DNA from: Gelatoporia subvermispora B
Lineage: Eukaryota > Basidiomycota > Agaricomycetes > Polyporales > Gelatoporiaceae
Direction: 5' to 3'
Length of the DNA: 64,000 bases
Assembly: GCA_000320605.2 (NCBI GenBank)
Contig: KB445801.1
Coordinates: forward strand, 128,397 to 192,396
Shown here: in pieces, positions 337-39,023 of the stretch
Layout: every line of letters begins with the position of its first letter
How positions within the stretch are numbered: position 1 is the stretch's first letter
Program-made: the position numbers and the translations under genes
The notes under the pieces: model-generated
What the model saw: only the letters and a program-made list of their open reading frames with translations
Databases searched by the model: none
Told to the model about the DNA's origin: nothing

Positions 337-3300
337 TTACGAGCTATATCCCCAGGAGGGTCTCATCACATTCATCGAAGTATTGGTAGCAATTTCCTCC
401 GCCCAAACATACTCTTCGGGGATAAGGGTGCCCCTGTCCGAGAGTTTGGGGTCTACCCAGTCAAACAACCCATCATTCTCCCAGCCTTCCTTCTGCATCC
501 GCTGCAGGAATAGACCTCGGATGAAGTTGTAGTTTGGTTTGTCCTCGAATGCAAGATTACGGCTGTGATCGATTAATGCCGTAAATTCAGGAGGAGACTG
601 CAGCAGTAACCGCCGCAGAGCCTCTCCGGCCTTCATCTCTCCAATTCGTCGTACTTTTGCCTTCATATCAGGGGCATATACGCCCTGCCAGGGCAGACGT
701 CCGTGAAAGAGGAAAAGAAGCGTTATGCCGAATGTTTCGATATCGTCTCGACGGCTTAGCTCTGTGACAACCAGAAGGAACTTGATGATAAGAAAAGCAT
801 GTGCGGGTCGTACAGACTCACCGCGACCAAATTGAGCGTTATGGCTGACGTAACGAGGCGTCCCGACTTCAGATCGCCCGTCCCTGAATGGGATATGTTT
901 CCTGGTAATAGGGTCCATGTACAACTTTGAGACACCGAAGTCGAACAGGTACACCACATTTCGGCTCTCCCCCAATCCGACCGCAAAGTTGTCGGGCTTG
1001 ATATCACGGATCAAGATGCCACGTGAATGTGCGAATTCGATGCGCATGAGCTGTAAGATATGAGTGGCCAGATTCCATTACGGCCATTCCTCAGAGAGTA
1101 CCTACCATTTGGAGCGCTAGCATGCAAATAGTCTTGAATGAGAAGCGTCCTCTGCAAAAGTGCCGCAGATGGTCCAGTGTTGGACCTAGCTTGTCCATTA
1201 CCATAACGCTACAGTTACGTTCATCGCCGTGCCAGCAAACAGACGGAAAACCACGATGATCTCGGAGGACAGCATAAATCTTCACTTCATATGGCAGGGC
1301 GTATGGCTGTTGTAGCGTCTCATCTGGGACATCGACTTTGACAGCCACTTCCTCACCCGTGAACAAATTGAACGCGTTGTATATGGTCCCTGTTTGCCCT
1401 TCAGCTCGGTTGGAATGTCGAATACTGCAATATCATACCAAAATCGCCCTCGCCCAATATGCCGTTGCATTGCCACAAGCGGTTGATTCGATACGGGGTC
1501 CAGAACCTGCGGTCCTCTCGATAGGTTCGAGTGTCTTCCCGATGATCCACGAGTACTTTGCATAGGTCCGAAAGGTTGACTGCGGTGTAGGTTGGAAGCA
1601 CTCATTCGTTGCGCGCTGAGGACTGCAGGCTTTCTGGTCGCGTAACAAGAGCGCTCTGTATTCCCAACCCGTGCGCAGGCTCTAGTACGGTAGGCAGCCG
1701 AGGTGACTAAGACAATGTCGGAGTACGCAAGCTCCTCGCTTGAAGTGTGTAGGTGCTTGAGAGAGGATAGCATATCGAAGCTCTGAGAGTATAAGCTATC
1801 GCGACTCGCTTGTGCAGGAGCAAGATGAAGCGAAAGTGTGTCAAGCGTCGATGAGAACACAGCGTCATGCACGGGTAAAGCTAGCATCGTGAATCCCTGA
1901 GCTCGTAGACACCCCAGCGCAAGCATAGTGTCCTCGTACAGCATCGGCTGCCGCAATACATCGAAAGCACGAGTCAGAACCACCTCATCCACAGTATGAT
2001 CGAGTCGTGCGGCGACATCCAGTAGAGCTCCATACATGTGCTCGGTGGGCATGACGCCAGGCTGAGCTCGGGTCCTAATACCCTCATACTCCACAAAAAT
2101 CTGCAACAGCCTTTTTCTTGTGTACAGCTTTTCGGCGTTCGGGTGCAGCACTAAAATAGCGCGGTAGATAGCACTGTCCCGATTCTAGTCACTCAGAAGA
2201 TCAGAAAAATTCACGAAATGACCACGGCGGCTTACAATCAATACGCCAACCGGATCAAAAACTATCACTTTGAACTCTTTCGCAGGAATTCGGGGATGAT
2301 GTATTGGATTATTTGCCATCTCGAGTTCTGGAGAAGGCTCGTCCGAGCCCCATACCGTCTTGTCCTCCACCTCATCCAGACAAGGGTCGCCGTCATAAGG
2401 GGCCTTGGTGGCCGACAAGGCATGGACGGCGGGACGCACGTGCTCATCGAACTCCGGCAGTTGATCATAATCTCGAGGAGCCTCTATAGCAAACGGCGGG
2501 ACTGTAGGGCAGAATTTGCCAGAAGTTATGGACTTCAGCCCGTCAGCGACCGGTACGTGCAGTTAACAGCTCAGAAGAGGGAGATACTTACATCTCGTAG
2601 ATCAAGCATCCACGGCGTCGTGAGATGAATACCCTTTCATGAATAGTCGGCTTGGAGTCTGGAAACAGAACATTTTCTGAGAATTCAGTCAACCATTGAG
2701 ATAATCTAGACGCACTGCCGTAGTAGCCTTAGATCGCGAAAAATTTCGGGAGTCTTGTAATTCGTAGGCATATGGCTTTGTGGTAGATATTCAAAGACGA
2801 AGTCGGCTAACCTGGGGGACGGACCCTTTTCTCTAAGCATAGAGATACTCCAGGTGTCCCAATGATCTTGGACGAGCTCAGGTCCACCGGAGGAGCGGAA
2901 TGACATGTCAACCATCCTTCTGCGTAGCTCAAACAAGTCTTTCTGTACTTGTGAGCAAAATACCCGAAAACTGGCGTCATCCATTTCAGACGGCAGAGGG
3001 TGGAAGTCGGTGTGTTTATCCATCGTTGCTTCAGACAAGGGAGGCACCGTATGAATATACAGCACTAGTCCGTCAGATGCAAGCGGTAGATTGACTGTAA
3101 GGATGTGTTTCCCATCCTCTTGAGCAGGCGACAAAGTGCAGTAGAAGCCCTTGTAGATCCCTTCGGGCTTCTGGGGCGATATCACGAAGAGCCTGCCCAT
3201 TGGTAGATATGTCCAACTATCACCAACATTCTGATAATCCGAAGCAAGGATCCGCAACACTAGGAAGGGACGAGTCTTCAAGTCAGAGGCCCTCTGGCGG

Positions 3301-3359
3301 CCAAGGAGAGGGAGCCAGTCCACGGTCTCCGCAGCGTTGAGCCTTGCCAGAGCAAACAT
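337..3359 (-). pseudogene. K1: broken copy of the unknown-domain / HAD / CK1-like kinase gene
   Basis: Seven exons can be traced: 3359-2716, 2658-2592, 2532-2236, 2184-1439, 1389-1106, 1050-822 and 761-337, with splice phases matching K2 and K3. Exon 1 encodes the unknown N-terminal domain (SPQKPEGIYKGFYCTL). Exon 3 ends in a degenerate HAD motif I (VFDPVGVLI, where K2 and K3 have GTLI). The last exons encode a CK1-like kinase with AVKVD, RDIKPDNF and FDFG, so the catalytic Lys, Asp and DFG remain. Two lesions are visible. Exon 2 carries an in-frame TGA at 2637-2639, and exon 4 is 746 bp where K2 and K3 have 745 and 748, which shifts the frame between about 1600 and 1650. The start at 3359 was chosen by alignment with K2; an ATG at 3368 is also in frame. 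The halves could still be expressed separately, but one full protein cannot be read through as the sequence stands. Confidence 0.75.
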
Positions 3360-4352
3360 CGGAGGCATGGCGGTGGGGCTTGGCCGAGTTCGTATGGATT
3401 GACAGTCAGCAAGGGAGCTGAGCGTGCTCGAATCACAAAAGGATCAACTATGAGATTGAGATTTATATAGCGTACGTCGCATGTCGGTACATGACCTCGG
3501 TGCCGTCTCTGAGTACCTGCAAAGGAAATTAGACAAATGAGTCAGCCTCTGTCTCACTGAGGCAGTTGGCTTTACATACCGAGTTAAACTAGAAGAGAAC
3601 TATGAATAATCGATGTTTCTTGTGTCTCAGTCCTGCTCAGTCAATTGTTGCCGATTCCCGAGTGCTAAGACTGCGATAGCAAGGCTGACCCGTTCTGGCA
3701 GAGTTGAATAGGAGTGAATGTGTTGCTTCGACATGAGAAAATTGAAATTGGTTAGTTCATGTTCAACGTCAACCTCAGAGGAACACGGAAAGTGCCGGAT
3801 GTGCGTTGCCGTCCTCCGGCAGCACTGGGCGCTCCTGGGGTGCTTAGACCAGGGACTGTTGGGATGCACATCATCCGATAACTGCCTGTTTTACATTATA
3901 ATCTGCCACGGTGATTGAAGGCGAGTCAGTCGAAGATGACCCACATACAGCAGACTCAGGGATCCCTCGAGCTCAATTTGGCCGTCTTGGACCATCCAGC
4001 GTGCTGCGTGCATACCGAATCGCCATCGAGATCGCTCACACTGCCAGACTGATTTGTTTATTGCTTCGTATGAAAACATCCCATATCAAGCAATTTTTGG
4101 TATGACTCCTGTGATGGGTTACGACACCCTGCACGCTCGGTTCACCTCCAGTAGGTGGGAGCCTCATGCGGAGTCTTGTGGCACGCCTCGATTCAGGATC
4201 CGCAAATCCAGCACGGTTGACAATCCGGAATCTATTCGGGTTGCGGAGTCATGCACCAACAGCTTGATTCCAAATGTGCCGTTCATATGTATTCCGAAGT
4301 ATAAGAGGTCAAGAGACATATTCCATCCAGGGATTCCAGTAGACACGTCGAT
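3360..4352. promoter_or_regulatory. Divergent intergenic region of module 1
   Basis: About 1 kb separates the diverging starts of K1 (minus) and P1 (plus). It must hold both promoters. A TATA-like tract (ttatatag) lies near 3461. Open frames on either strand here show no recognisable motif. No sequence block shared with the other two divergent regions was obvious by eye. Confidence 0.4.
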
Positions 4353-5189
4353 ATGGCTGACCCCTTCTTCGCTGCACCTGTACCTGCTCAAGCTCCACCA
4401 AGTAATCCAGGACTACTTCGACCTGGTGCCTTCATCATGCACAGGACACGGCGTCGATTATTCACAATCACGTCTGGTCGCGGTCAGATGCCTGGCCCTA
4501 GGGCTCATCCCTGTCTCATTCATGATGACTTTCAAGACATCTTCGGGAACCCGTGTGTTTGGGTAGTCTCAATGACAAAGGGCTCGTACTATGGGAGACC
4601 AGACGAGACCGGGCAAAGAAGGCTCTATAGGAAGCAGGAGGTATGTACTCGTATCAACGCGATGTGGCGTCAAGCTAAAATCTTCGAACATCATAGCTGC
4701 GTGCCAACTGGTGGCAACCAGTACATTGGCATCCTGCGTCGTACCCTACGCATTCGCATTGTGAGATTCCTCCTGACATGTGCACATTCCTTGGCCGAGT
4801 AATTCCACGTTCTCCAATCGACCTCTACTACTTTCCGATACCGGGGCTTGCCTACGATCAATACAACGCACAATATACTCACGAGGGGGTGTGTATCCCA
4901 TACGCTAAGCCGTCATACATGTGGGTAGGTGATGTCGGAGAGGCAATCACCCACGAGGAGACCCAGCGATACCACGTCATGAATCCTCATTACAGCATAT
5001 ATCCGTTGTCTTTGCACCAAATCCATCAGGAAATGGCGTATTGTATGTCGTCCGAGTCCGTCCTTTCTGGCGTATCCGAACTGATATACACTTACAGGGA
5101 GGCGGTTGGACGCCCCCAAGTTCGATGCCGATGACACTCAACCTCCACAAGAAGCATACTGGCGTTATGGCGAACCTATGGATAGGTAG
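4353..5189 (+). CDS. P1: module partner protein, function unknown
   Basis: Three exons, 4353-4640, 4697-5042 and 5098-5189, with GT-AG introns at phases 0 and 1, give 241 aa without a stop. I do not recognise the family. The N-terminal third holds a block RPGAFIMHRT, then HPCLIHDDFQD and CVWVVSMTKGS. The middle holds PYAKPSYMWVGDVGEA, the best-conserved motif among the three copies. There is no signal peptide or membrane segment, so it is probably intracellular. The alternation of an 'R-P-x-L-[IV]' strand and a 'V-W-[IV]-V-x-x-T' strand faintly recalls PemK/MazF-like SH3 barrels, but this is a weak resemblance and not a call. The gene diverges from K1, which is broken, while P1 itself looks intact. 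Confidence 0.7.
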
Positions 5190-6639
5190 CAAATTCTCCG
5201 TACCTCAATGCTCCTGTATATTCCCCGCTTTGTCCGTGCATTTGTCTGGTAGTAACGTAATGTGTTTGGAGAACCACGACCGTCGAATCTATGTCATAAA
5301 GGCGAAACGTAGACGAGGAAACATTCGCCTATGAGCTTCAAACGATTGGGATAACGTTTTCACAAGCCAACCAGTGCGGTGAATTCTGACAGGCATATGA
5401 GTGATATGAGGTGTCTTTCTGTATCTCTCAGACATTCTGAAATCAAGATGGCCCCCCTCACTTACTGTGAAACTTGAAGGTCCGCATAGTCCTCAGCATG
5501 CTCGCACGGGTTCAGCAAAAGATTCGCCAATTGCTCTGACGGGCGCACGGGTCCGGTACGGTCCGAAATAATGATCAACAGCATGGTACTTTCGAATGTC
5601 GGCATGAGATTTGAAGCACACAGATCAGCTGCTATCTGACAGGACGATGATAATTAAACAGGATACGGAACATACTTTATGTCCGTGGTTTGCGGCGCGG
5701 AACGCCAGACTGCAGCGTGCGTCTCGTGGCTCTCAGAGGCAAAGCTCCCGATATCAAAAGACAGGTGAACGTGTGTTGTATCAGAAGAAGCGTTCTGGCA
5801 GTGAATGCGTGACTGATGTTACCAAAGCGGAAAGATAATATCGCTGAAGCCGCCCATGGATCTATATCGTATGCTCAGCAAGAGTTCATTCTAGACAACT
5901 GGAGCCCGGGAGCTGCACTCAGATAGAAATTCGTCGCGTATGTGATGCCACAACAACATTCAGGGCCAGATCATGTACAACCTGGATATACGGAAATTGC
6001 CATGGAGTTGGAAGAGCGAAGGCAGCACAGCCTGAACGTAAAACACCTATGGGAGTTTATTGAGTCTCGAGGTAGAAACCTAGACATTCATAGGCCCCTA
6101 GTTTACATGGTGCTGATACGAGTCCTGGAAATGCTCCAGGCCACTATCTTTGTGTCGCGGGACTCATCCTCATGATATCGATTGTGAAATGATCGGAACC
6201 TAAATACCTAAGTATACAACCTCGCACTACTTGATGGGCCGAGTGTTGAGGATGTCTCTACTAGACTGTCACAATGTTGTAGTAGACCAGCTAAAGACCT
6301 GAGAGGCCTTACATGTGTACGTTGGAAATCGAGTGACGTTCTGCTCTGCGCAGGTCGTCCGACTTACGTACGTTAGCACTGGCACAGATGTGATCGGGTT
6401 GCGTCGGCCGGCGTCAACACGGGTCGTCTCTTTCATCCTTTACAATCCACCACCTCTTTTACGCCACACCATTGGCACACAGACAGGATCAGCTGGTGCA
6501 TGTGCTCAGAGGACAACAGCGACTGCACGGGCTCTGTTCAAGCTTGCAACATGAGGTGAGTTCAATGCGTACTCACGCATCACGTCTCAATCAACTTCGA
6601 GGTGTGAGTTATCAATGTCTGACGCAAACTGTCAGTGCG
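5190..6639. other. Spacer between P1 and F-box pseudogene F1
   Basis: No gene could be assigned in the first 1.2 kb. An open frame at 5942-6175 (77 codons) has no recognisable motif and no visible introns. The last 150 bp carry the conserved upstream block of the F-box family, listed separately. Confidence 0.4.
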
Positions 6640-6640
6640 A
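6490..6640 (+). promoter_or_regulatory. Conserved 5' block of the F-box family (copy F1)
   Basis: The words GTGCTCAGAGGAC and TTCAAGCTTGCAA, about 30 bp apart, recur upstream of F3 (about 16,630-16,680). A weaker version with GGTGCACAGGGGACCGTAG stands upstream of F4 (about 23,188). A GTGAGT- or GTAAG-like donor follows and a CAG acceptor precedes the start codon, which suggests a non-coding first exon and a 5' UTR intron shared by the family. Confidence 0.45.
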
Positions 6641-7946
6641 CGGCGTCATGCAGCCCTGTATCCAGACTTCCTTCGGAGTTGATCGATATGATTGTGAGAA
6701 GCGAGGGGCTATGATGGGACAAACAGACTCTCAAAGTATGTGGACTGGTCGCGAGGAAGTGGTACCTGCCATCTCGGATCCACTTGTTCGAACGCGCATT
6801 CCTTGATGACGAGAGAATCAGCGCCTTCAAGGACCTGCTAGACCAATCTCCACACCTGGGCCACTACATCAGAAAGATCACATTGTCCACCGAGTCTGCA
6901 GATCATCTATCTTGTATACCCTCAATCATCAAGTACGTCGACAATGCAGAGGAGCTTCACTTGACTTGCATTACGAAACCATTCCCACGTGCGGCGGCAT
7001 TCGCGAAAATCGGTCCAGTCAAGTATCTACACATCTATCACGGACGTCTGATTGAAGGCGACACGGAGGACCTGCTTGCAATTGCCGAGTACCTAGAGAC
7101 GTTTCCCTGTATCACAAAACTGTCTCTTCACAGTACATATTAGCTATCCCCAAATTTTGGCTCTGGCTTAGCTCGGATGGCAGATGCGCTCTCTGGGCTG
7201 AACATCACAAGTCTTCGAGTGGACAGCTACACGCCTCCTATCCTCGTTCATCACTTCAGGGACCATCCACCGGTAAACATAGAAAGAGTGGACATTCAAG
7301 ACCATGGAGGCGGCGACTTCAACCACAATCTGCAACTGATCAAGATTGTCGGAGGCCGCATCAAGGTTCTGCAAATTATTCTTTGGCAAGTTGCATGCGT
7401 TGAGTACATCTACCCGGGTGAGTGTGAATGTGTTCCCTTGACGCAATGTAGCTCACACCCATACATCTAGTTTCTCCGGCCATGGACCAAGCCTTTGGAA
7501 GTCTAACTCAATTGAAGTTGTTGAAGATGATCGCATCGCGTGCATACGTCGACTACGCTGCCGAACTCTTGTCGAGGCTTGTCGCGCCGGCTCTCGAGAC
7601 GCTATACATGGAGCTGGAGTACAATGACAGCTCCAACTACGCCGCTCGATTTCTCAATGCCTGCATCAGTATCTCGGACAAACTCAGTAACATCGACACC
7701 TTCCCTCGACTTTGTGGGATCATGATCTACGTATCAGGATCGACAGAGAATGAGGAAGAGTGGGAAATGATGGAAACGGTAGTCTCGCAACTCCTTTCCA
7801 GGGTATCAGCTCGCGGAATCCTCAAGCTGGAGTGTGAGTATCACCAGACATTTGGACACCATGTGATAATTGCTGACTCGCTCCAACATGGTAGTCCAAT
7901 ATGTAGTTTGGAATAGTGATGCAGCCTTTCGGAGCACTGGACCATG
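6640..7946 (+). pseudogene. F1: decayed F-box/LRR-like paralogue
   Basis: The reading frame matches F4 throughout: an F-box-like start (RLPSELIDMIVRSEGL), then CGLVARKWYLPSR, then leucine-rich repeats. The position of the family start codon reads ACG (6640-6642) instead of ATG. Two in-frame stops interrupt it: TGA at 6712-6714, and TAG at 7141-7143 where F4 has CAG. The family intron positions are kept: a donor after 7420, an acceptor before 7474, and another donor after 7832. In this family the F-box would bind Skp1 in an SCF ubiquitin ligase and the repeats would choose the substrate. With the start lost and two stops this copy should make no full protein. The 3' end is uncertain. Confidence 0.75.
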
Positions 7947-8374: not shown

Positions 8375-11300
8375 TTAATTTACCATAACTTCTCTCCAGG
8401 TGTCGTTGGCCACCTCTCTGTCCCAGACATATTCTTCTAGGACAAGTGTCCCCGTCTGGAGCATCCTGCCATCGACCCAATCGAACATACCATCGTTGGT
8501 CCACCCCTCCTGTCGCATACGGTCCACGAAGAGTTGCCTCACCATGTCGTAATCCGGTCGATCTTCAAATGCGAGACTCCTTGCATGTTCGACGAGAACG
8601 CCCAGCTCCGGAGGAGAGCGAGCGAGTAGTTCCCGCATAGGCGCCCCCTCCTTCATTTCGCCCGTCAAGCGCTTCTTCGTTTCCACGTCTGGCGTGTAAA
8701 TTCCCTGCCACGGAAGGCGTCTATGCCAGAAAAGTAACAGAACGGTTCCGAGAGCCTCGATATCGTCGCGCCGACTGAGTTCTATGGGCATTGGAGGTCA
8801 GGTCTCTCTGCAGGAGACAGATGCAGGGAAGAGGTACGCACCGCGGCCAAAGTGAGCGTTGTAGCTGATGTAGCGGGGGCTGCCGACGTCTGAGCGGCCC
8901 TCTCGTGCTGCCATGTGCTGCCCTGTTCTGGGGTCCATGTACAGCTTCGCAATACCGAAGTCGAACATGCATAGTATGCTGCGGTTTTCGTCGTTCCCCA
9001 TCGCGAAGTTCTCGGGTTTTATATCCCGAATCACAATACCGCACGAATGAATAAACTCGATGCGTGAGATCTGGCAACATGATAAGTATCAGGATCGCAT
9101 GTTCGAAGGAATGAACTGACCATCTGTAGCGCGAGCATGCAGATAGTCTTCATCGAAAATCTACCTCTGCAGAATCGGCGGAGATGCTCCAGTGTCGGAC
9201 CTAGCTTGTCCATTACCATCACGGTCGCTCCACCTTTCTCACCAGACCATCTGATCACTGGAACACCTGGGTAACCCTGTAGAACACGATAGATCTTCTC
9301 CTCGTAAGGTAGCGCACAAGGCTGGTCAAGCTCGTCGTCGGGCATATCAACCTTGATAGCAACCGCTTCGTTTGTGAATAGATTGAAGGCGTTATATACG
9401 GTCCCTTAGAACGTGCGCAGTTTTAGTAGTTAGTCGCAATGAGATTTCAGTCGAACATACCGAATCCGCCCGACCCGAGCACGTCGTTGCACTCCCATAT
9501 TCTTCTGATACGGTATGGTGTCCAGAAGTCTGGATCCTCCCAGTGCTCGCGGTCGAGGCCCTGTAGTAAGTGCAGGCGGTCGCAGATTGAAAGCAAGCCT
9601 TCAGCCTCATATGTGGGACCCGTCATTTCCTCTCGTGGCCATGAGCACCGCGAGCGGATAATATGCGCGGTCTGGAAGCTGAGCGTGTTTGCGGGTTCAA
9701 TGACGCGGTATATAGATGTTGATATGACTACTATCTGGTCGGCCGAGATACTGGGGGTCGAAAGCTGCGCATGTGCAAGTAACGCAGACAAGGTCCCTGT
9801 AATGGGCGAATAGAGGTCGCGATACCTAGTTGCCACTGGCAGCCAGTGCACACATGCGGGGAAGCTAGGCGCTGTCGAGAACAGATCTTCAGGAAGTGGA
9901 AAAGCAATAATAGATTGATTTTCCTCAATAGCTGTGAAGAAGGGTTGAGCGTCATGGGAGATCAGAGGTGTCCACAGGATACCCAGAGCCTGCGCCAACG
10001 CGTCATTGGTGAACGTAAGTCCCAGGCGGTGTGCCGTGACCCGGAGAGCATATCGCATGTTCTTAACTGCAGGAATGTTGGGATTGGCTCGTATCCCAAG
10101 TGCTTCACTTTCAACAAAATACGATAGTACTTGGTGCATTGGTGGTCTATTGCTCGAGTTAGGATTCAAGGACTGGACCGCTTCACATATAGAGGTCTCT
10201 CGGTCCTGTTGACACATTCTACTGAGCCCAGTGTCATCTTACGCGCGATGAAACATTACTCACAATGAGCGTGCCTATAACGTCGAAAGCGAGCAACAAA
10301 AATCTCGAAGGCAGTATTGGATGTGAGAAATGTTCGCGTGGAGCAAGCTCAAAACCTGGCGACGGATCCTCCCACGCCATGAGGGTGTTGTGATCGATGC
10401 CTTCCAGCTCAGGTTCGCCGTCGTATGGAATCTGGGTGGCGAAGAGAGTCTCCACGGCAGAGCGCAAAGTCTCGTCAATTTGCGGCATCTTCCCGTAGCC
10501 AGAAACTGCATTATACGCAAACTGTGGAGTTTCTGGTACGAAGTCTCCAGTATCAACGTCCTGGACTTTGCGATCAGAAATTTGAATATGATATCCGAAA
10601 ATGATAAGCCTGCACCTCACGTAAATGCATCACCCAAGGCAATGAGAGACTAATACCGATGTATCCGTAATCCTTCTCTAACCTGTTGTATGCCAGTCAT
10701 TTTGACGTGATTCCCAAATAGAGGTAGCAACTTACTGGCGAAGAAACCTGAGCTCTTGCGATATAGAAGGCACTTTTGAAATATCAAAGTTGTCCGGGCT
10801 TGAGAGAAACTCATATATGCACGCCTGCTGCCGAGGAGATATCTTCTTGTCCCAGCCGGGCCTCGCACTCCACGTCTCCCACTTCGGTTCATCAGGTATG
10901 ACCCCATCACAAGTTTGCTTGCCGACACTCCTCATCCTTCTGCGAAGCTCAGGCAGATCTCGCACCACTGAACGGCAAAGAACGCCCAAGCCTGCCTCGT
11001 CGAGCTGAAAATCGAGAGAAGGGGGGGCGATGGCTCCCATAGTATCCTCGAAGATCAGAGCTGGAAGTGTATGGACATAGAGCGTCTGACTCGCTATACG
11101 TGGTGATGAATGGCCAGTGATTACTCGCGATTCGTTCGGCTCCGCTGGATGTAAGGCGCAGTAGAAGCCCTGGTAGATGCCTTGTGGCTTTTGAGGAGAT
11201 ACCACGAAGAGTCTCCCGGACGTCAGAAAATCCAGGTCATCCCCTGAGCTTTCGTATTGACCCCCAGGCAGAAACAACGCGAGGAATGGGCTGGTCTCGA

Positions 11301-11388
11301 GTCCCATAGCTGTGTACTGGCCAAGCAATGGCAACCAACTGGCAGTTTCGCCAGCGTTCAGCTTGGCCACGACCAGAGTTCCGAGCAT
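8375..11388 (-). CDS. K2: unknown domain / HAD-like / CK1-like kinase fusion
   Basis: Exons 11388-10736, 10682-10616, 10560-10264, 10205-9461, 9404-9121, 9070-8842 and 8781-8375 join in phase to 893 aa without a stop. Residues 1-240 form an unknown domain (SPQKPQGIYQGFYCALHP) shared with K1 and K3. Residues about 320-560 are HAD-like: motif I AFDVIGTLI with Asp 333, then a hydrophobic strand (QIVVISTSIYRV) typical of the C-terminal part of that fold. Residues about 580-870 are a CK1-type kinase: glycine loop LGSGGFGTVY, Lys 605 in AIKVD, catalytic Asp near 698 in RDIKPENF, and FDFG. All key kinase residues are present, so it is probably active. There is no signal peptide or membrane segment. 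It diverges from the frameshifted partner P2. The physiological substrate is unknown. Confidence 0.75.
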
Positions 11389-12560
11389 CGATATGTGAGG
11401 TGAAACCCGTGATAGAACACAAAAAATCCCTGGTGGATGAGCGGTCGGTATGAGTACACGGGTCAAGGGCTGTCGTGGGGTGTGAGAGCTCAGGATGCAG
11501 ACATCGTAATGAAGTGGTCAGTGGGATGATACGACCTTTGAATGAACCCGAAGCACAATTACTCATGGCCCAAAGACACAATAACGCTTCTCCTTTGACG
11601 TTCCTGGTCTGGTAGTGCCGGAATGAGTGGATTGGACATGACAGCGCAGGCGTTGTGCTCAACGCCGACAGACTCCGTCCTAGCACTGTACAGCACAAAG
11701 CGCTCAACGCGGACTCCGAGTAACGCTCAGCGCTGGATCTTGATTCGAGCGGCGGTTCTCGGACCCTGGTGTCGTGTACCACATTAACTCCCACTACCCG
11801 TCTTTGTAGGGATGTCCTTGTTGCAATCCTTCGAGCATTGATTACTACAATAACACTCGGGATTCCGTCCGTCATATACGCAGACAACTGCGGCAGCTGC
11901 CATGTCGTTTAGATACGTAGTCCGCACATTCACCGGCCTCGGTTTCCAGGCTCTGCCAGAGCAGTAGGAGTTCATTAATGATTGTTGTACACAATGTAGA
12001 CCTATGACATATGTGACAAGCGTGTATTCGAGTATCCATGGAACTACAATGTTGGTACAGCATCACCGAGGAGCTTTTGTCTACCCATCCCGATCTCTTG
12101 TCTTGTGCTGGTGCCAAGCAGAGCCTCCTCGTGAGTTCTGAGTCTCCTGGTCCTTGACACATGAATGACGGGACAAAAGGATGCAGTGCTACGCTACCTC
12201 GTACTTGATTCGATGCTGAACATCTATCGGCGTCTACGTTCATCTCAAGGAGGTGGTTGTCATGTACGACTGGCGCATATCTCTGTGTTGAAGAAATCTC
12301 GTACATTGCCATTCAGCTTCCTTGTACCAAGTATGTGTACAAGAACGTGAGGGGCCACTTCTTGGGACGTCTAAACATGACAGGTGAATATTGCAGTCGA
12401 ACCCAGGATCCGCCTTCTCATGGCCAGAGCTCCCGCACATATAAATCTCACTTAATGCACCACATTCAAGTACACTCGTACCATTTCGGGCCCCGACGAA
12501 ACAACAAATTCGCAGCCATTTCAGTCTCGTCAGGGATCATACGGTATGCATGCCAATTGC
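11389..12560. promoter_or_regulatory. Divergent intergenic region of module 2
   Basis: About 1.2 kb separates K2 (minus) from P2 (plus). A TATA-like element (catataaatc) stands near 12,440, on the P2 side. The open frames here (for example 11,237-11,887 minus and 12,257-12,565 plus) have no recognisable motif, and the first overlaps K2 out of frame. Confidence 0.35.
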
Positions 12561-12613
12561 TCTGAGCCCGTCAAGGCGAAACTTATCCCATCGATGTAGA
12601 TGGTGACTCGGAC

Positions 12614-12799
12614 GTGCCCATGCTTCCGCAGGACAAAACTTACCCCCATGCAAAGCTGCAGAACTCAGCCATACAGCAGCAAGGGCATTCTCTTCGGTCT
12701 TCGGTCGTGCCCATGCTCCCGCAGGACGGAGGTCACCCCCATGCGATGCTGCAGGACTTAGCCATACAACAGCAAGAACCTCCCCCTCAATCTTCACTA
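12614..12799 (+). repeat. Two 93-bp direct tandem repeats within P2 exon 1
   Basis: Units 12,614-12,706 and 12,707-12,799 are imperfect copies. Each encodes 31 residues beginning VPMLPQD, followed by PHAxLQ and AIQQQ. The unit length is a multiple of three, so the frame is kept. P1 and P3 lack this segment. Confidence 0.85.
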
Positions 12800-14074
12800 G
12801 TTTCATCGTTGGTTCCCACTTGTCCGACGCAGGGTCAGACCAGGACCCGGCAACTCATTACCGAGAGTCCTGCAGAGACTCCGCCCTCTATCTCAGCAGC
12901 TCCGACATCTACAGCTCATGCTGGAAATCGCCCTTTGGGATCCACCTCCACTGGCTCTGCACGAGCTCGCTATCTGAAATCTAGGCCCACGTTTCAGCCA
13001 TATCCATCATCGAGAAGTCGACGCCCAACTTTGTCAGATGCTTCAACAGAGCGTACCAACCCATCTGCTAGCTCCATGGATTCTTCTCAAGCTCGCTGCC
13101 CCAGTGTTTACATATCGTCGATGACTTCACCTGCTATATCCCACCCAGCGAGACGCATCATGGAGGGAAGTGCAGAGAGTACGCATGATCGGGGTGACGA
13201 ACTGTCGTCCACGTCAGGTGGGCCACTTCTTGCGCAGTCTCCTGCCGATGAACGTGATCCGACGCTTCCAAACAATCCTTCGACATTCGGGTGGCCAAAA
13301 AATAATAGGTCCAATCATCTGTGGCGCGATAATCCAATCCGTCCTGGCAAATGGATCATGTATCGATCCACGCGTGTCCGGTTCGCTGAGACTTCCGGTA
13401 GAAGCAGAAAGGCTGCAAGATACATGCGTCCTTGCCTTATACATGATTTTTCTCTGACAAGGATGGCACTCGCATGTTTTGGCTTATCCCAATGACGGGA
13501 GGATCGGAAATCCGTGAATCGGATGGTGTTTTGGTGAGAAAACAAGAGGTATAATATTCTCTTGAAAGCGCGAACAGGATCTCATCGATATGTTCATGAT
13601 CTGCATATAGTTGAAGCCCAATTTATGGAGACCAGTACGGTGGTATGAAGATGGCAAACCAATATTAGACGTGGCACCAGATGACTGCTGGATCAAGAAC
13701 GGAAAGGAAAAGACGCCTCTTGCGCGAGAGCCCGTCAAAATCCGCTGGACTTCACCACGCAATAGGGCAGAGGGAAAACCTAATATTCCTTCGCCTAAGC
13801 CAAGCTACATATGGGTTGCCGATATTGGGGAAGCAGTAGACCCCTGTCAACTTGGCGAACAACATCTTCTTAGCCCGTATTACGAGATTGCAAAGGAGTG
13901 GCTTGATGAGATACATGCAGATATGGTATACTGTGAGTGAACTCAACTTTTAGTGAGTCTCATAATGGCTCACACGTTATGCTCGCAGGGAAAAGTCGTA
14001 ATGCAACACGGCCTGAAAGTTCACACCCCCGAGACTGGCCGGATTTCTACAGGAAGCGCATATTCCCGGATTAG
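12620..14074 (+). pseudogene. P2: frameshifted module partner gene with a long N-terminal extension
   Basis: Three exons equal those of P1 and P3 in phase: about 12,620-13,548, 13,611-13,932 and 13,989-14,074. The family core is present: NPIRPGKWIMYRS, MRPCLIHD, MFWLIPMTGGS, and PKPSYIWVADIGEAV near the C-terminus. The frame changes between the last two exon 1 blocks because of an apparent two-base TC duplication near 13,451, so direct translation ends at 13,495. About 230 residues precede the core, where P1 and P3 have only about 25-30. This extension is rich in Ser, Pro, Thr and Gln, has a 31-residue tandem repeat, and looks disordered. The first ATG in frame is 12,620, but the frame is open from 12,563, so an upstream exon is possible. 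It may be a pseudogene or carry an assembly error. Confidence 0.65.
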
Positions 14075-16560: not shown

Positions 16561-17403
16561 CACTCACTTGACGACCCACTACGTCCTCTGAAGTCCAACG
16601 CCTCCATACATACTACCAGCTGATACGGGTGCTCAGAGGACCGTGGTAATCGCGCGAGTGTTGTTCAAGCTTGCAATATCGGGTAAGACAGCCCTTCAGT
16701 TATGCTTCATACCTTAGGTAACCTCGAGGTTGAGAAATTGATGTCTGACACGAGCACCCAGGGCAATGGGGTCATGTAGCCCTGCATCCAAGCTGTCTGC
16801 GGAGTTGATCGACATGATTGTGAGGAGCGAGGACCTGCGGCAGGATGGACAGACTCTCAGAGCATGCGGACTGGTCGCGAGGAAGTGGTATCTACCATCC
16901 CGGGTTCGACTATTCGAGCGCGTGGACCTTTACGGAGAGAGATTCAGCGCCCTTAAAGACGTGCTGGATCTGTCTCCGCACTTGGGCTACTATGTCAAGG
17001 CTATCCAATTCTCTGTCGGGCACGCGGACCACCTGTCTTGCCTAACCTCAATCATCAAGCGTATCGACAGTGCAGAGGTGCTCAGCTTGTACGTCACGGG
17101 GGAATTTCCACGTGCAGTGGTGCTCGTGAACATCGGTCCAGTGAAGGAGTTGCATATTTGTATAAATTCTTGGATCCAAGGTTATGTGGAGGACCTGCTT
17201 GCCGAGTACCTAGAGACATTCCCTCGTATCACGAAATTGTCTCTCTACACAGGAACGTCGCTACTCCCAAATCACGGTCCCGGCCTGGCTCAGCTGACAG
17301 ATGCGCTCTCCAACTTGAGCATCACATGTCTCCGAGCGGATGGTCATGCGTCCCCTGTCTTCGTTCATTGTTTTAAGGACCATCCTCCGGCAAACTTAGA
17401 GGA

Positions 17404-21797: not shown

Positions 21798-21804
21798 GGG
21801 GGAG
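21795..21804 (+). other. Polypurine tract of the Copia element
   Basis: TGAGGGGGAG immediately precedes the 3' LTR and overlaps the polyprotein stop codon (TGA at 21,795-21,797). It would prime plus-strand cDNA synthesis. Confidence 0.85.
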
Positions 21805-22008: not shown

Positions 22009-22637
22009 GAGGAAGTGAAGATTGAAGACGCTTTCGACTGCGACTTTGACCACAACCTGCAACTTCTCAATATTGTCGGAGGCCGTATCAGGGCGCTGGA
22101 CGTCGCCCTTACCTGGAGAGGGTCGTATGATCACACTAGTGAGTGTGTAGAGCTCCCCTGCAAAGGATGTATCTCACGTCCATTTGTTCAGTGGCGCCCG
22201 CCTTCGACCAAGCTTTCGGTATCCTAGCTCTACTAAGGTCACTCAAGATGTCTGTGAGCTGTAAATCCGTCGAGTACGCTGCCGAGCTCTTGTCGAGGCT
22301 TGTGGCTCCGGCTCTTGAGACATTATACTTAGGGCTGCGATACCATGATGCGGTCGGCTACCTCGATGAATTCTTCGATGCCTGCATTCGCGTTTCTGAT
22401 GTATTCAGTAACGTCGAAGCCTTCCCTCGACTTCAGGAGATCGTAATGCACGTAGAGATCATGGCGGATGAGGACGATTGCGCAAAAATAGAAACGGACG
22501 TCATGCAGACTGTCTCTGGGCTGTCGGCTCGCGGCATTCTGATACTGGAATGTGAGTGGCTGCAAGCATATATGCGTAGCTCCTACATTGATTGCTGACT
22601 TCGTCTAACTATGATAGTCACCAAAATCATATCTTGA

Positions 22638-23301
22638 TTTCTCATAATATACTGGGACGTCCTTGAGATTGTTATCACCTGCACTTAGAGAGCAGAAGTC
22701 TCTCCGCTGTCGTCTATGCTACAAACCAGTCGACCAGGAGATGTTGATTGCGCTCGCGACGACGGGGATGAGGGCCGGTGCAGTGCTTGACGCTGAACAG
22801 GAGTGGTATCTTTGACTGAAGATGAGACAGTGCCAGATGACAACGGCTGCATCCGTTTGGGGTAGGGAGCGCTGACAGCCTATTAATGTATTCCCTGGTT
22901 TTGCCGTGGGCAAAATCGCGACCGCACCTACGGTGTACATGGTGTACAAGTATATAGCCTATTAGCCTCTATCGGACATGAAAGACCGGTTTGCGAGACC
23001 ATGTATTATGAGAGGTTACGAATGAACCCGCATGATCAACGAGACGCAAACGGGCCAGTATGCACGTGCTGGGAATCCCACGGCTGCACATTTCTCTGAT
23101 GCAAGAAAGCCAACACGATGGTTTCCTGGGGCAACGTAACGACTCAACAAGTCTAACATCACCGTGCATACGGAAGTAGCTAATACAGGTGCACAGGGGA
23201 CCGTAGCAGTTTCGCGAACCCCATGCATAATATCAGGTGAGTTTGACTTGGACTCATGACCCATGTGTTGCATGCAATTTCTGATGCGAGCTCTCAGTGC
23301 A
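22638..23301. other. Spacer between F3 and F4 with the F4 upstream block
   Basis: No gene is visible. Near 23,188 stands GGTGCACAGGGGACCGTAG, the F-box family upstream block, followed by GGTGAGT near 23,235 and a CAG just before the F4 start. This suggests a 5' UTR intron. Confidence 0.4.
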
Positions 23302-24582
23302 ATGGCATCACGTAGCCCTGCATCCAAGCTGCCCCCTGAGCTGATCAATATGATTGTGAGAAGCGGGGACTTTTGGACTCAGATGGCATGTGGGCTGGTC
23401 GCGAAGAAGTGGTACCCGCCATCTCGGGCCGACTTGTTCAAACATGCTCTGCTCTATGGCCCAAAGCTCATCTCCTACAAGAACCTACTAGACCGGTCCC
23501 CGCACTTGGGCCACTACGTCAGAGAAGTTGGAATAGTTGGAATAGAGTCCGCGTATCACGTTTCTTGTCTCCTCTCGATCGTCAAGCATATCAACAATGC
23601 AGAGCGGCTCGAGTTGATTTTCAATACGCAGCCACCCCTACGTGCAGCGGAATTCACAAACATCGGTCCAGTGAAGGAGCTACATCTCGAATGTGCATCT
23701 CTCATCGAAGGTGACGAGGAGAACCTGCTTGCCATTGCCGAATACCTAGAAACATTTCCCCGTGTCACAAACCTGTCTCTAGCGGGTATATATCAGCAAT
23801 CCCCAAATCCCGACTCTGATTGTGCGCGGCTGACAGACGCGCTCTCTAAAATGAACATCAGAAGTCTTCAAGTGGACAGCTACACCGCTGCTATCGGCGT
23901 TTCTTGCTTCAAGAACTATCCCCCTGCAAACCTAGAGAAAGTGGACATTCGATACTACTATAACAGCGACGACTTCAGTCACAGTCTACGCCTTATGAAG
24001 ACCGTCGGAGGCTACATCAAGGTCCTGCAACTTCAATTTCCGCTGAAGGAGGAGATCGACGGCATGGACCCAGGTAAGTGTTGAAATGCCTCTTATGTGC
24101 AATGCATTTCACGAGCACTTACTCTGGCCATAGACGAAGCTTTTGGAAACCTTACTCAACTGAAGTCGTTGGGGATGTACGCGTCGTATTTGTCTATGGA
24201 GTGCGCTGCCGAGCTCTTGTCGAGGCTGGTTGCCCCGGCCCTCGAATCGATACACATGGTGCTGGAGTACCATGCACAGCCCGACTACGCCGCTCAATTC
24301 CACAACGCCTGCGTCAGCATCTCAGACATATTCAACAACGTTGAGGCCTTCCCTCGACTTCAGAAGATCGCGATTGATGTAGCCGAGACGCCGCAAGATA
24401 TCATGATTGACCCGGAGGCAGTGGAAACGGAAGTCACGCAGTCTCTTTCAGGGCTGTCAGCCGGCTCGCGAAATTTCAAGCTGGAATGTGAGTATCTACA
24501 GACGTATAAGCACAGCTTCTACATCGATTGCTGACTCTTCTCAACTACGACAGTCAAATTTGGTGATGACGAGGACTACTAG
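23302..24582 (+). CDS. F4: intact F-box-like / LRR-like protein
   Basis: Exons 23,302-24,073, 24,134-24,487 and 24,554-24,582 join in phase to 384 aa. Residues about 5-50 form an F-box-like region (KLPPELINMIVRSGDF, then CGLVAKKWYPPSR). The rest is a series of leucine-rich units of the kind seen in expanded Agaricomycete F-box families, ending in EFKFGDDEDY. By family analogy the F-box would bind Skp1 in an SCF ubiquitin ligase and the repeats would bind a target; no substrate can be inferred. It is the only intact member of the local array (F1, F2, F3 and F5 are all broken). The start ATG was chosen because it follows a CAG acceptor and matches F3; an upstream in-frame ATG lies in the presumed 5' intron region. 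Confidence 0.75.
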
Positions 24583-25186
24583 GGTTGTGCATGTTTGAGA
24601 TCCTGGACCAAGACCGTACAGCAAACCTGATAGCAGCATGTAAATTACTGTTATGTCCTGCATCATCCTTTCCTATGAAACGCCAAATCGCTTATTTAAT
24701 TCCAAAAACAGTCTGCTGGAGAGAGTTTCTAGCACTGATATCCTGTCCAGTAGACACTGGCAGCCGTATACTGCTCAAGAGAGAGGATAATTCTTGATAT
24801 ATGTGTCCAAGACTATCTTTAAGCCTTCTCTGCACATGCCTCATACTCATGCACATACATACGGCTGTACCATGAGCACGACTTCTGGGTGTAGGCCAAT
24901 GCCTACATCCGTATGACGCGACTTTATCCTGATGTCGATCACAAAACGACCTCGTCGAATTTGCGACTGCCCCAAACGTAGCAGCAGGCGCCCATCATCT
25001 GGATGTTTTGTTGACGTCGGTGGAACATTGTCTATCGCATATTGTGACATGAATTACATAGACCTAAAGTTTTACCTACACTACACAATTGTTCGACCAT
25101 AAGGTGTTTCATCGCTCCCGAAGCAATACGCACGTGTGGACAAGTCTCTTGGACGTGACGTATCTAACTCCTATTATTCATTTAGT
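24583..25186. other. Spacer between F4 and F5
   Basis: About 600 bp with no recognisable gene. The first half of an F-box gene, expected upstream of F5, is absent. Confidence 0.45.
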
Positions 25187-25632
25187 AACGCTCGCCACAA
25201 ACGAGACTTTTGGAACGCTCACCCAGTTGAGGTCACTGGGACTCCGCGCAATCCATGCGTACGTCTATTATGCCGCGGAGCTCTTCTCTGAGCTCGTCGC
25301 TCCGGCCCTTGAGATGTTACACATGGAGCTGGAATACGACGCAAATGTCGACTACGCCACTCAGCTCTTCGACGCTTGCGTCAGGATTTCGGAGAAGCTG
25401 GACGACATCGACGCCTTTCCTCGACTTAGAGCTATCACGATCCTTGTATCAGGGACAACGGAGGATGAGAACCAGTGGGCGATGATGGAAGTGGTAGTCA
25501 TGAGAATCTTTGCTGATCTCTCGGACCGGGGAAATCTCAAGCTGGAATGTGAGTAACGTGTCTAGACATAACTGCTACAGGAATTACTGACCACTTTTGA
25601 CTACGATAGTCAAGTGTACGAGCTGGGAGTAG
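25187..25632 (+). pseudogene. F5: C-terminal half of an F-box/LRR-like gene
   Basis: The frame corresponds to exons 2 and 3 of F4: NETFGTLTQLRSLGL, then YYAAELFSELVAPALEML, then IDAFPRLRAITI. The family donor follows after LKLE, and a last exon encodes FKCTSWE and stops at 25,632. The acceptor TTTAG just before 25,187 is kept. The first exon, with the F-box, is missing, so the gene is truncated although the remaining frame is open. Confidence 0.65.
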
Positions 25633-34261: not shown

Positions 34262-35104
34262 TCAAGCTCCGACATTGTACCGGCTCGGCAACGTATCAGG
34301 CTGGTGAACCCATTGCTGCGGACGATAATAAGCGATCCCTAAATGTGTGGTATCAGTATCATGTTCTCGACCAGGCTGAGACTCGACTCACAATGCTTCA
34401 TGCATGCGCGGAGATATTGTAGCTGTGCATTCGATATTGCGCGGTACTGATTTATCCGAATTAATCCCGTCGCGATCTCGTACGGTACACCCTCTCCGGT
34501 ATCCCCTACCCAGATATAACCGGATTTGAGAGGGCCCAAGGTGGTATTGGGCACCCAGGTGTGTTGGATGATTATAGGAGGACGCGGCAAAGCGGCCTCA
34601 ATTATCCATCCCATTGGCCCATTCCACTTCATATACTGATCGGGCGGGACAAGAACGTCGTTTACCGGCATATTGCTGCCATCTACATAACAGACAGGAT
34701 GCCACCAGCTATGTGCAACCTAATAAATCTCAGAGCCAGGTTATGGGAGGCAGAGGAGAGTCACACACCTTGCGCCGGAACTGTGGCGTTCCGTCCTCGT
34801 TCAAGACGTACGATCCGTCTGGATTTTTTGTGAATTCTCCACCGGTCGTTATGGGAACAATCCAGACGCAGGCTCTAGATTGCTTGTCCTGAAAGTCGTC
34901 AAACACAAGACAGGGCCGATCTCTGCGTGCGAAAGGTCGTCGGTTAGCCTTAAGCGACGATGTCTCCGCGAAATGTGAACGTGTCGGAGAGAACATAATG
35001 AATTCTCCAGGTCTGGGAGGTATCGGTATTGCAGCAGCAGGTTGCGACTGAGGTATGTTCCCGAATAGTATCGAGTCCGAGGCCATATTGTACGAGGAAG
35101 GCAA
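34262..35104 (-). CDS. P3: module partner protein, function unknown
   Basis: Exons 35,104-34,769, 34,635-34,392 and 34,338-34,262 join to 218 aa (or 212 from the ATG at 35,086) with phases 0 and 1, the same as P1 and P2. Family blocks are PPRPGEFIMFSPTR, RPCLVFDDFQD, CVWIVPITTGGE, and SGYIWVGDTGEGV. The segment between the third and fourth blocks is the most diverged. Short and long paralogues share no targeting signal, so the protein is probably cytosolic or nuclear. It diverges from K3, and both genes of this module look intact, making this the best module copy for study. I do not recognise the family; the PemK-like resemblance noted for P1 applies here too and is weak. Confidence 0.7.
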
Positions 35105-36020
35105 CTTTCTTCAAAGAATCTGCCTGGAGTGTACGAGCTGGAGAGTGCGAACCGCAAGAGGACCTCTTATACTGTCCAGAGGTACCTTGAGTTTGGCCAA
35201 CCGGGAACTATGGAAAGAATACGGGTACACGCTAGCCCTTCAACCCAAGAGCAGCCCATAACCGGTTCTCGACGAGCCTTCATTCGTCAAGTATGAGGCA
35301 TATAGGAAGGTGAGGGACGAGTCAGTCAACCCAAATCTGGAAAGTTGCGATCTAAATCTGAAGCATTTCGTGCAGCAGCCGCAAGGTTCCATCAAGAGCA
35401 GAGCAAGGACCGGAAGAATTGTTTTCTGCAGAGAAAAGGGGAAGATTTGGTTGATCTCGGCTTCTGCTCGCTCCCTGTTCCGTCGGAGTGCAAACGGACG
35501 GGATGACAAGTTGTCTCCATCCCGTTTACAGGCTGGCGTCTATGAGAGCCTCAAGCATCAACTCGAAGCTCGCCAATTGTGTTTTGCCATCAAGCACGAG
35601 GCGATTTGAGTGACTCATGTATTCTATATCACCGCGTTGGTCGAGAAGCGAGGACCGTAGGAGAGAGCGCGAAGGTAGCTTTTCATCCCAATTATCTTTG
35701 CGGGAGCAAACGATTACATCGATAAGCACAGATCCCGAACTGCGGATGAATGCGGCAGCCAGACCCTGGATGCATTCTTTCTCGAAGCAAGTCACCAGCA
35801 TCTTGTTCCATGTGCTTCCTCGGAGGTGCGCAGAATCCAGATGATGACAAACGCAAGCCAGCGCTCGTACTCCAGTGCGTGGGAAATGAACTTGGGGCGT
35901 GGCTCTGATCATACCCGAGCACCGAGTATATCGAACGTCGAACGTCCGACGCTCAACTGTCGAACTTTTCAAAGGCGGCGTTATCTGGTTCTGCATTGCG
36001 TTCTGCGCTACAGTGTTCTT
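35105..36020. promoter_or_regulatory. Divergent intergenic region of module 3
   Basis: About 0.9 kb between the starts of P3 (minus) and K3 (plus). Open frames on both strands (for example 35,526-35,996 minus, 156 codons) have no recognisable motif and overlap one another. No block shared with the other divergent regions was found by eye. Confidence 0.35.
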
Positions 36021-39000
36021 ATGGTGCTCTCATTCGTGCTGGTTGAACTGGATCCTGTGGCATCGTGTTCGGCCGAGCCCACCTACTGGCCTGGAGCACA
36101 AAAGGTGGCGGAACTCAAGACCCAGCCGTTCTTAGCATTACGTGTTCCGCTGGGCGATATTCCATGGGTTGAAGAAAGACCAGACTTTGTGAAGAAAAGC
36201 TACCTATTCCCAGTCTCGACGGAGAAGCCCGATGGACAGTACACCGGATTGTATCTGACTCTCAACGACTCTCTAGAGCCCGAAACACGTATCTTAAACA
36301 TCATTCCACCTCTGCGATACAAGGGGCAGCAGTTATACGTTCAGACTTGGACATGCTACACCGAAGTCCTGTCTCCCGGAGTTGTCGATCTTCCCCTCCC
36401 GCATCATTTGGACGAAGACACTATCGAGTCCTTTTTCGCCTGGCTTAGAGATGATGTCGTCAAACGGTATAAGGACTTCAAGTCTGTTCGCAGCTCTGGG
36501 GGGGAAGACGAAGTGCGGTCAAATTGGAGTACATGGAGTAATCAGTCCGTACCGGATTGGCGAACTAAGCCATTTACGAAAACATGTACGTTCAAGCATC
36601 TGCCCTGTTCCTCTGTAGATCGTGTAGCAGTCTCTATGCCTCCATCCATAGTACACGAAATGAGGCTGTTACTACGGTAAGTGTCCCGTTTTCGGCAACT
36701 CAGCTCGTGCTCAGGTGCCATGTTATTTTCAGGTTGATCTCGGAGTATTCGCGGTCAAGTGTAGTGTCGACTACTGCCTGGGTGCGGAGCTTACGGATGG
36801 TATGCGTCTTTCTCAGCAATTCCATGATGATGATGACTAATGGAGGACCAATCACAGAATATGTCGACTTACGATGGCATCTCATTTGCTAAGCATGTAT
36901 GTGTCCACGGGACTCTTGGTGAACTCGACGACACTGTAAGACGGGAGACCAGCGTATTGCACTCAATGAAGATACCGTTCGATGGCGAACCAGACCCAGA
37001 AATACCTGACGAGGTGTTCTTCACCCGCTGTGACTCGCCCTTCCCTGATCTCCCCTACGTTCAAGAACCGAGCGGACCTGTGCAAGCCGCTAACTTCAAA
37101 GTAGTAGCTTTTGACATGTTTGGCACTCTGATCGTCAGTCGTGATGTTACGGCTCCTCCCTAGATGTTGCACTAACATGTCCGCGCCGTGCAGGATCGCG
37201 ATACGGCTCTATATCAAGCAATCCGGCTCATTCTACCGGGTATCAAGGGATTTCTCATGCACAAAGCGACGCAACTTTTTCTTGATTGCGAGGCCAGGGA
37301 GTCCAACTCTTGCCCAAATCTCTCGCCGTTACATGTCTCTCGTAATGCTCTGGCTGAAATGTGTCATCGTATGCGCCTGTCCACTGACAAGACTGCAATC
37401 GATGAGGCGACGCGATGTCTACAGAAGACGATGCTTCACACTGACAGCGCTTCTTGTGTACAGAAGCTGCGATCTGCAGGCTTCGTTGTGCTAGCGCTGC
37501 CTTATCCCGAATCTCTATGTGCGTCTCATGGAAACTACCCTATCGGCGTCCCTTCCTGCTCGTTTGAACCGGGGCGACTTCACCGCCAGAATCCGTCTAT
37601 GTTCGTGGTGTTACTGGAACACCTCAAGAAGACTCTGCCTGGAATTACCCCGGCAGACGTGGTAATCGTGTCGTCTGCAAGGCATCAGACCGTAGAGGTC
37701 GCCGTGAAGCTCGGCTTCCAGACTGCGCTAATTCGACGACCCCAGCATCTTGAATCCCTCGTTGATCTAGAATCGGCCCCTCCTACCTACATTGCTGATA
37801 GCATGGCTCACCTGTGCACAGTCCTATGCCAACGCATACCTGTACCGAGTCGTCTTAAGGATCCGCGAGACTGGCGACCGGATCCCTTCAGAGTCCAGGA
37901 AATCTACCAAGATCGAGGTATCCTCGCCGAAGGTAGCGGTGGTGAGTTGTCGTTGTTCCTCGAATGAGTAAGATGTAAGAATCTGACTGATGTGGCCTTT
38001 TGCTCAGGCAAGGTCTATGACGCAATCAATGTTGTGACGGGCGAGAATATGGTTATCAAGATCGACATATCGGAGAAAGTTATCCAGAAGGAATGCACAC
38101 TACCCTACGAAGCTCAGGCTTATCGTATTCTCCGCGGCCATCGAGGGATCCTAGAGCCCCGGTGGAGCGGACATATTGGAGGCGGGAACGAAGAGGCGTA
38201 TGCGATTGTCTTTGAGAAGCTGAGCCCGGATCTCTCGAAGCTTTGTACTTTCTGTCGGGGTCGTCTGTCAATGAAGACCATCTGCATGCTCGCGCTTCAG
38301 CTGGTGAGAGTCTAGGTGTGTCGATCAGCGTCGATGCTCATATAAATTGATCTTCTCAGATAGACATCATCGAGTTCGTGCACTCACGAGGACTGATTAT
38401 TCGCGACATAAAACCTGAGAATTGTGCGACTGGAACTGATATTGATTGTAGCATCGTGTACATGTTCGATTTTGGTATGGCGAAGTTGTACCAAGATCCA
38501 GTCACAAAGAAGCACATCCCGTATAGAGAGGGGTTCATTGGGACTGGGACTGCCAGGTATGCTAGTCACAACGCGCACTTCGGGAGAGGTACGTCGTATC
38601 TGCTTATCATAGCTGCTGTCGTATTGCTAATATACTAGTCTAGAACTGAGCCGCAGGGACGACATTGAGATGCTCGGCCATTCGCTCCTCTACTTCTATC
38701 ACGACCGTTTACCATGGCAAGGCATATACGCACAAAGCACCGACGACAAATTGATGCGCATCGGACAGATGAAAACGGGCAAGACCTTCGAAGACTTGCT
38801 TCAACGCTCTCCGCCCGAATTAGCTGCATACTTTCATCACTGTCGCAGCCTGGACTTTGAAGATTCACCGGACTACGGGTATCTCAAGCAACAGTTCACT
38901 GTCCGAATGAAGAGGGAGGGCTGGCAAAACGACGGGAAATTCGATTGGATTGAAAGCAGCCATTCGGAAGACGGAACGTTACTGCCGGAGGAGTACAAGT

Positions 39001-39023
39001 GGAAGGAATGGCCTACGTCTTGA
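36021..39023 (+). CDS. K3: unknown domain / HAD-like / CK1-like kinase fusion
   Basis: Exons 36,021-36,676, 36,733-36,799, 36,846-37,133, 37,194-37,941, 38,008-38,303, 38,360-38,588 and 38,644-39,023 join in phase to 887 aa. Residues 1-241 form the unknown domain ([25 protein letters not shown]), more diverged than in K1 and K2. The HAD-like part has motif [10 protein letters not shown] with the presumed nucleophile Asp 331, and [19 protein letters not shown] further on. The kinase has a glycine loop (GSGGKVY), Lys 604, catalytic Asp 701 in RDIKPENC and Asp 722 in FDFG, then a CK1-like C-lobe ([19 protein letters not shown]). The key residues support kinase activity; the HAD part could be a phosphatase or a non-catalytic domain. 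It diverges from intact P3. Confidence 0.78.

Follow-up and report, generated by a model that had tools for sequence, protein, structure and literature searches.

Divergent homeodomain gene pairs, arranged head-to-head and present in repeated copies, are found at the mating-type locus of mushrooms. In MazF the Arg of the RP motif and the Thr of the PIT motif have a catalytic role. Spok, the spore killer of Podospora, unites in one protein a nuclease domain that kills and a kinase domain that gives resistance, and its kinase was placed nearer to eukaryotic-like kinases (PMC6660238).

The locus described here belongs to Gelatoporia subvermispora B (order Polyporales), the assembly of which comprises 37.7 Mb in 52 contigs. 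The window, meaning the whole stretch of DNA that was analysed, is contig C11:128397-192396 (64,000 nt) and carries divergent pairs of a kinase fusion gene (K) and a partner gene (P). These share with the mating-type homeodomain pairs a head-to-head layout in repeated copies. A mating-type locus was rejected as the identity of the region, the three homeodomain (PF05920) matches being on contigs C1 and C3 and none on C11. A type II toxin-antitoxin operon contains a small co-directional antitoxin, whereas the gene partnered with P is divergent and encodes about 890 aa. The likeness to Spok is that one system contains both a kinase part and a part presumed to act on nucleic acids; however, Spok is a single protein and K/P are two divergent genes with a CK1-type kinase, a comparison made by description (PMC6660238). 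In the open-access literature, within the terms used, no description of a gene pair with the K/P layout was found; the same literature gave no report of a native fungal MazF/PemK among the matches listed, and none of a HAD/casein-kinase pair in Agaricomycetes.

Results

Gene models in the window

The initial annotation had placed three divergent K/P pairs at 337-5189, 8375-14074 and 34262-39023 of the window, with seven exons in K, three in P and a divergent gap of 0.9-1.2 kb. All three pairs were present at these coordinates, with the following features (window positions):

337..3368, minus strand: K1, broken kinase gene of unit 1, seven exon remnants, from splice-aware alignment to K2
3369..4352, no strand: intergenic region of unit 1, divergent, 984 bp
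4353..5189, plus strand: P1, intact partner, 241 aa; exons 4353-4640, 4697-5042, 5098-5189
8375..11388, minus strand: K2, intact kinase fusion of unit 2, seven exons, 893 aa
11389..12619, no strand: intergenic region of unit 2, divergent, 1231 bp
12620..14074, plus strand: P2, frameshifted in exon 1; exons 2-3 at 13611-13932 and 13989-14074
34262..35086, minus strand: P3, intact partner of unit 3, three exons, 240 aa (CERSUDRAFT_124953)
35087..36020, no strand: intergenic region of unit 3, divergent, 934 bp
36021..39023, plus strand: K3, intact kinase fusion of unit 3, seven exons, 887 aa

The exon counts agreed with those first described, as K2 and K3 (893 and 887 aa) were open across seven exons with GT-AG introns, and P1 (241 aa) and P3 (240 aa) across three. 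In K2, K3, P1 and P3 together all 16 introns had GT-AG ends and measured 46-66 bp each. The start codons of units 1-3 were separated by 984, 1231 and 934 bp, in line with the gap originally given. The splice-aware alignment of K1 to K2 gave 405 identical residues of 876 aligned, and two in-frame stops and one frameshift were reported by the aligner.

The spliced P3 model was identical to CERSUDRAFT_124953 at 240 of 240 aa. The public model of K3, CERSUDRAFT_157667, is truncated at its start and covers just the final 529 aa. The frameshift of P2, which like the lesions of K1 was missing from the initial annotation, was read from the reading frames; this stretch is bypassed in the public model CERSUDRAFT_75269, which drops part of the MazF-like core described below, apparently by a forced intron that hides the frameshift. 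P2 (12620-13288), and probably also P5 (C11:113229-113960), has a long N-terminal extension that is missing in P1 and P3.

The K protein search, in which the 7999 candidates with most shared words were scored, revealed full-length K in two species only. Two Hygrophoropsis aurantiaca proteins (order Boletales), presumably both encoded on one contig of 33,397 bp, matched K3 over 99% of its length at 37-38% identity, and the architecture of K is therefore not an artefact of the gene models.

Other features were observed in the region. A Copia-type LTR retroelement at 17404-22009, with 205-nt LTRs that are fully identical, encodes gag, integrase and reverse transcriptase domains in a single frame of 1366 aa. 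It is inserted in a copy of an F-box-like gene (16.7-17.4 kb, resuming at 22.0-22.5 kb) and is flanked by the short repeat AGGA, or GAGGA when CA is taken as the LTR end. The F-box-like copies form a local family of direct repeats (6605-7733, 16731-22454, 23277-24381 and 25186-25448) with members around unit 1 and unit 2 and also in the interval from unit 2 to unit 3; one copy matched F-box at E 0.0062, below the cut-off. At window positions 49105-54919 there is a further local duplication, seen as similarity between the open frames of C11:177501-179494 and of C11:181314-183315. Telomere repeats were not found in the first 3 kb of C11.

Genome-wide census

Three P proteins and two K queries were searched against the genome, followed by tblastn, splice-aware alignment and reading of the loci. 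Seven K copies, one K remnant and five P copies were identified, and within the G. subvermispora genome these were located solely on C11 at 31-167 kb (about 136 kb), K-query matches on other contigs being confined to the kinase part. The copies outside the 64-kb window, absent from the initial annotation, lie on the same contig:

C11:34470-31436: K4, unit 4, no lesion
C11 about 36.5-37.3 kb: P4, unit 4, in-frame stop
C11:42300-42518: exon-1 remnant of an eighth K gene, standing alone
C11:111910-108889: K5, unit 5, no lesion
C11 about 113.2-114.7 kb: P5, unit 5, no lesion seen
C11:117248 to about 115.4 kb: K6, broken, from 117248
C11:120861-117830: K7, five in-frame stops and a frameshift

All five P genes found in the genome were divergent neighbours of a K, and five of the seven K genes had a P. 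The other two, K6 and K7, are both broken; neither a HAD part nor a P was found at the K6 locus, and no P was found beside K7 by genome searches with the P proteins and by reading of the locus. The broken genes were K1, K6, K7, P2 and P4, as read from the assembly, in which lesions could be assembly errors. Unit 1 thus combines a broken K1 with an intact P1 and unit 2 an intact K2 with a frameshifted P2; both genes are intact in unit 3, and unit 5 also looks intact. The start-codon gaps of units 4 and 5 were 2063 and 1318 bp, values that depend on the start codon chosen. Protein searches needing shared 5-residue words found no P outside the G. subvermispora genome, and no prokaryotic or viral relatives of P were confirmed.

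Origin and age of the pairs

Across the five units the identities were 36-62% for K and 28-44% for P. The K and P identity matrices correlated with an r of 0.947, which was equalled or exceeded in 3 of 120 permutations (identity permutation included), and this correlation of K and P distances indicates that one ancestral pair was duplicated. The pairs had been counted initially as three independent pairings, a view that does not survive the single contig and the matched K/P distances. The associated argument against chance holds for adjacency, seen for 5/5 P genes, but not for independent events, as there was one duplicated pair. A recent segmental duplication, raised at the outset as an explanation that would undo the proposal, was rejected on finding that synonymous sites were mostly saturated: with K6 excluded this held for 13 of the 15 K pairs, and among the P pairs it held for 8 of 10. 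In the unsaturated pairs, at high dS, the dN/dS was 0.13 for K2-K4, 0.19 for K5-K7, 0.20 for P2-P4 and 0.37 for P3-P4; past purifying selection has acted on K and P in these few pairs where it is measurable.

K3 was as distant from its own paralogues as from the Hygrophoropsis K proteins. The K tree, with two kinases of the same genome that we take to be CK1-like as the outgroup, contained three deep lineages, namely K3, the Hygrophoropsis pair, and K1, K2, K4, K5 and K7, and did not resolve their branching order (support 65/69). K3 too is accompanied by a P, which dates the pairing to no later than the divergence of K3 from the other K genes. Open frames of at least 45 aa in C11 28-48 kb and 100-192 kb were compared all-against-all (E 1e-6); nothing other than K and P fragments recurred in all five units, and no third member common to the five was found among these frames. 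K and P are best read as a single old unit of two genes that was copied on one stretch of chromosome with its head-to-head layout kept.

Exact words of 8-11 bases shared among the five intergenic regions were sought in five tests that required presence in a minimum of 3-5 of them, and none was found. Five 12-mers were common to two intergenic regions, and as many were seen in 12 of 100 single-base shuffles. With no clear shared words in the five intergenic regions, the co-regulation suggested in the initial annotation is left without sequence support.

Domains and residues of K

K comprises an N-terminal domain without a known family, a HAD-like domain and a CK1-type kinase, and the Pkinase and HAD-like matches obtained with the K proteins bear out the fusion originally described. 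The kinase stretch of K1 matched Pfam Pkinase at E 8e-17, and the Hygrophoropsis proteins at 6e-18 and 4e-18. The catalytic Lys, the loop Asp and the DFG Asp were present in all eight aligned K proteins, with DLG in the two from Hygrophoropsis, and by its catalytic Lys, Asp and DFG/DLG Asp the K kinase is CK1-like. The stretch RYxSxN...RRDD, which we take to be a CK1 signature, was also present in 8/8. The two comparison kinases of G. subvermispora, presumably CK1-like, aligned to residues 1-292 and 1-293 (of 325) of the Hygrophoropsis K kinase part with identities of 130/286 and 125/283. K differs from the CK1 family in having IRD (VRD in K4) in place of HRD and in its additional N-terminal and HAD-like domains.

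The HAD-like part of the Hygrophoropsis K proteins matched nearly the whole model of type II haloacid dehalogenases (TIGR01428), with E values of 8.6e-7 and 0.0013 that fall below the cut-off (at most 29.2 of 125.4 bits), and the HAD-like piece of K1 matched Pfam Hydrolase at E 0.21 at best. In haloacid dehalogenases catalytic roles are assigned to the nucleophile Asp and to motifs II-IV. The nucleophile Asp was present in all eight aligned K proteins, whereas motifs II, III and IV were missing in weak alignments to solved structures (E 0.11-0.23): the place of motif II is taken by Pro in 8/8, that of motif III has no Lys and motif IV has no Asp. With the nucleophile retained but motifs II-IV lost, the HAD-like domain is probably a non-catalytic fold. 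For the N-terminal domain of K1 all Pfam matches were at E 0.09 or worse. A relationship of the K N-terminus to P was rejected, there being no profile match, and its predicted structure had a pLDDT of 32.1, too poor for use.

A MazF/PemK-like signal in P

Three libraries (Pfam, NCBIfam and PDB) weakly matched one common stretch of P3, with a MazF-like core at residues 54-98. P3 matched Pfam PemK (PF02452) at E 0.013-0.022, with 15.4 of the 23.1 bits required by the curated cut-off, and the NCBIfam CptIN toxin at E 0.021. PemK or CptIN was matched by one of the five P members, and the P1 and P2 pieces had no Pfam match. In the PDB profile search the solved MazF 7ewi was matched at E 0.0055 with three P members and at 7.9e-4 with five, using an alignment that includes two broken members read with X. 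It was the best PDB match of the five-member profile, the next being at E 0.62, and the reversed profile gave a best E of 0.41. As a yardstick, a search with E. coli MazF alone gives E values from 7.6e-9 to 0.12 for the solved structures more distantly related to it. For P3 alone the match to 7ewi had an E of 1 and ranked behind four other chains, and P5 alone did not match 7ewi. Comparison of P with a seven-sequence MazF alignment using hhalign gave a score of 25.5 and a probability of 11%; none of 200 column shuffles reached this score (highest 23.7), and the reversed control scored 12.8. A six-frame search of the G. subvermispora genome with PF02452 gave no match, whereas 3 of 14 control genomes did give matches. 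Five PHROGs families each matched one of the five P members at E 0.2 or worse. The structure of P predicted by AlphaFold2 had a pLDDT of 38.5, too poor for use.

The core of P, RPCLV...WIVPIT, aligned by profile to 7ewi. The Thr of the PIT motif was present in all five P proteins and the Arg of the RP motif in three, being replaced by His in P1 and P4, which also have Ile for Glu at residue 41. The Arg-bearing P2, P3 and P5 each lie beside an intact K, although P2 is itself frameshifted; of the His-bearing proteins, P1 lies beside a broken K and P4 beside an intact one. With five units this pattern of Arg or His against K integrity is a hint only. P differs from MazF/PemK in being about twice as long, below the cut-off and fungal, in the change of Arg to His in two of five members, and in that no MazE-like partner was seen.

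Discussion

Our tentative preference is for a reading in which K controls P within an old kinase/partner unit, possibly resembling a toxin and its antidote. P would be a small protein with a MazF/PemK type of barrel that acts on RNA or binds it, and K would be its dedicated controller, binding P through the N-terminal or HAD-like part and phosphorylating either P or the target of P. P would then act when K is absent or inactive, as a toxin does with its antidote. The original proposal of a modifying enzyme and its target or antagonist remains the best guess, with some support from the MazF-like signal of P. Control of P by K is consistent with the presence of all five P genes beside a K, the joint duplication, the constraint, the kinase residues and the MazF-like profile match; K6 and K7, which have no P, count against it. 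The sub-cut-off PemK score, the match to PemK or CptIN in a single P member of five, the empty six-frame search with PF02452, the non-significant matches of P3 and P5 taken singly, the hhalign probability, the poor predicted structures and the two broken members in the P alignment speak against the MazF and toxin-antidote part of the reading. A strict need for an antidote would forbid an intact P1 beside a broken K1, P1 being one of the proteins with His for Arg.

Nearly as likely as this reading is an ordinary pair of a kinase and its accessory protein or substrate in fungal signalling or recognition, in which P is not MazF-like, nothing is toxic and the divergent promoter keeps dosage equal. 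Linkage and co-duplication are equally expected of such a pair and the intact P1 next to the broken K1 would be harmless. The MazF signal that it must set aside is short and sub-threshold, but grows as P members are added and is by far the best PDB match, with lower controls. We consider it rather unlikely that K and P are unrelated neighbours, passively co-duplicated in one chromosome region without joint function. Adjacency and orientation were kept in 5/5 units even though the copies are old, and no other neighbour recurs in all units, yet passive linkage agrees with the finding of every copy within about 136 kb of one contig, with a single ancestral pair accounting for all five units, with the solitary K6 and K7, with one broken gene in each of units 1, 2 and 4, and with the lack of shared promoter words.

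It appears improbable that the units are a spore-killer-like element, selfish or for allorecognition (cf. Spok of Podospora), in which P kills, K confers resistance and drive brought about the spread and diversification. The cluster of diverged and partly broken copies, and the finding of full-length K in two species only among the 7999 candidates scored, would suit such an element, and Spok too joins nuclease killing and kinase resistance domains, according to the part of the source cited (PMC6660238). However, two genes are involved here against one in Spok, and the K kinase is CK1-like whereas that of Spok lies nearer to eukaryotic-like kinases in the same part of that source (PMC6660238).

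Returning to control of P by K, its most specific form is unlikely, though less so than a spore killer: P would be a MazF/PemK-like ribonuclease checked by a divergent CK1-type K with a dead HAD domain, and the units, as a specificity array in one chromosome region, would constitute a toxin-antidote or allorecognition system of two genes, the first that is native to mushrooms. If K does control P, this would be a fungal two-gene system that joins an RNA-acting fold of bacterial type to a eukaryotic kinase, and the array would resemble those at self/non-self recognition or drive loci. Whether fungal arrays of this sort are toxin-antidote systems could then be tested directly on K/P. Should K/P have no such role, an old gene pair is still defined, together with the places where public gene models hide K and P.
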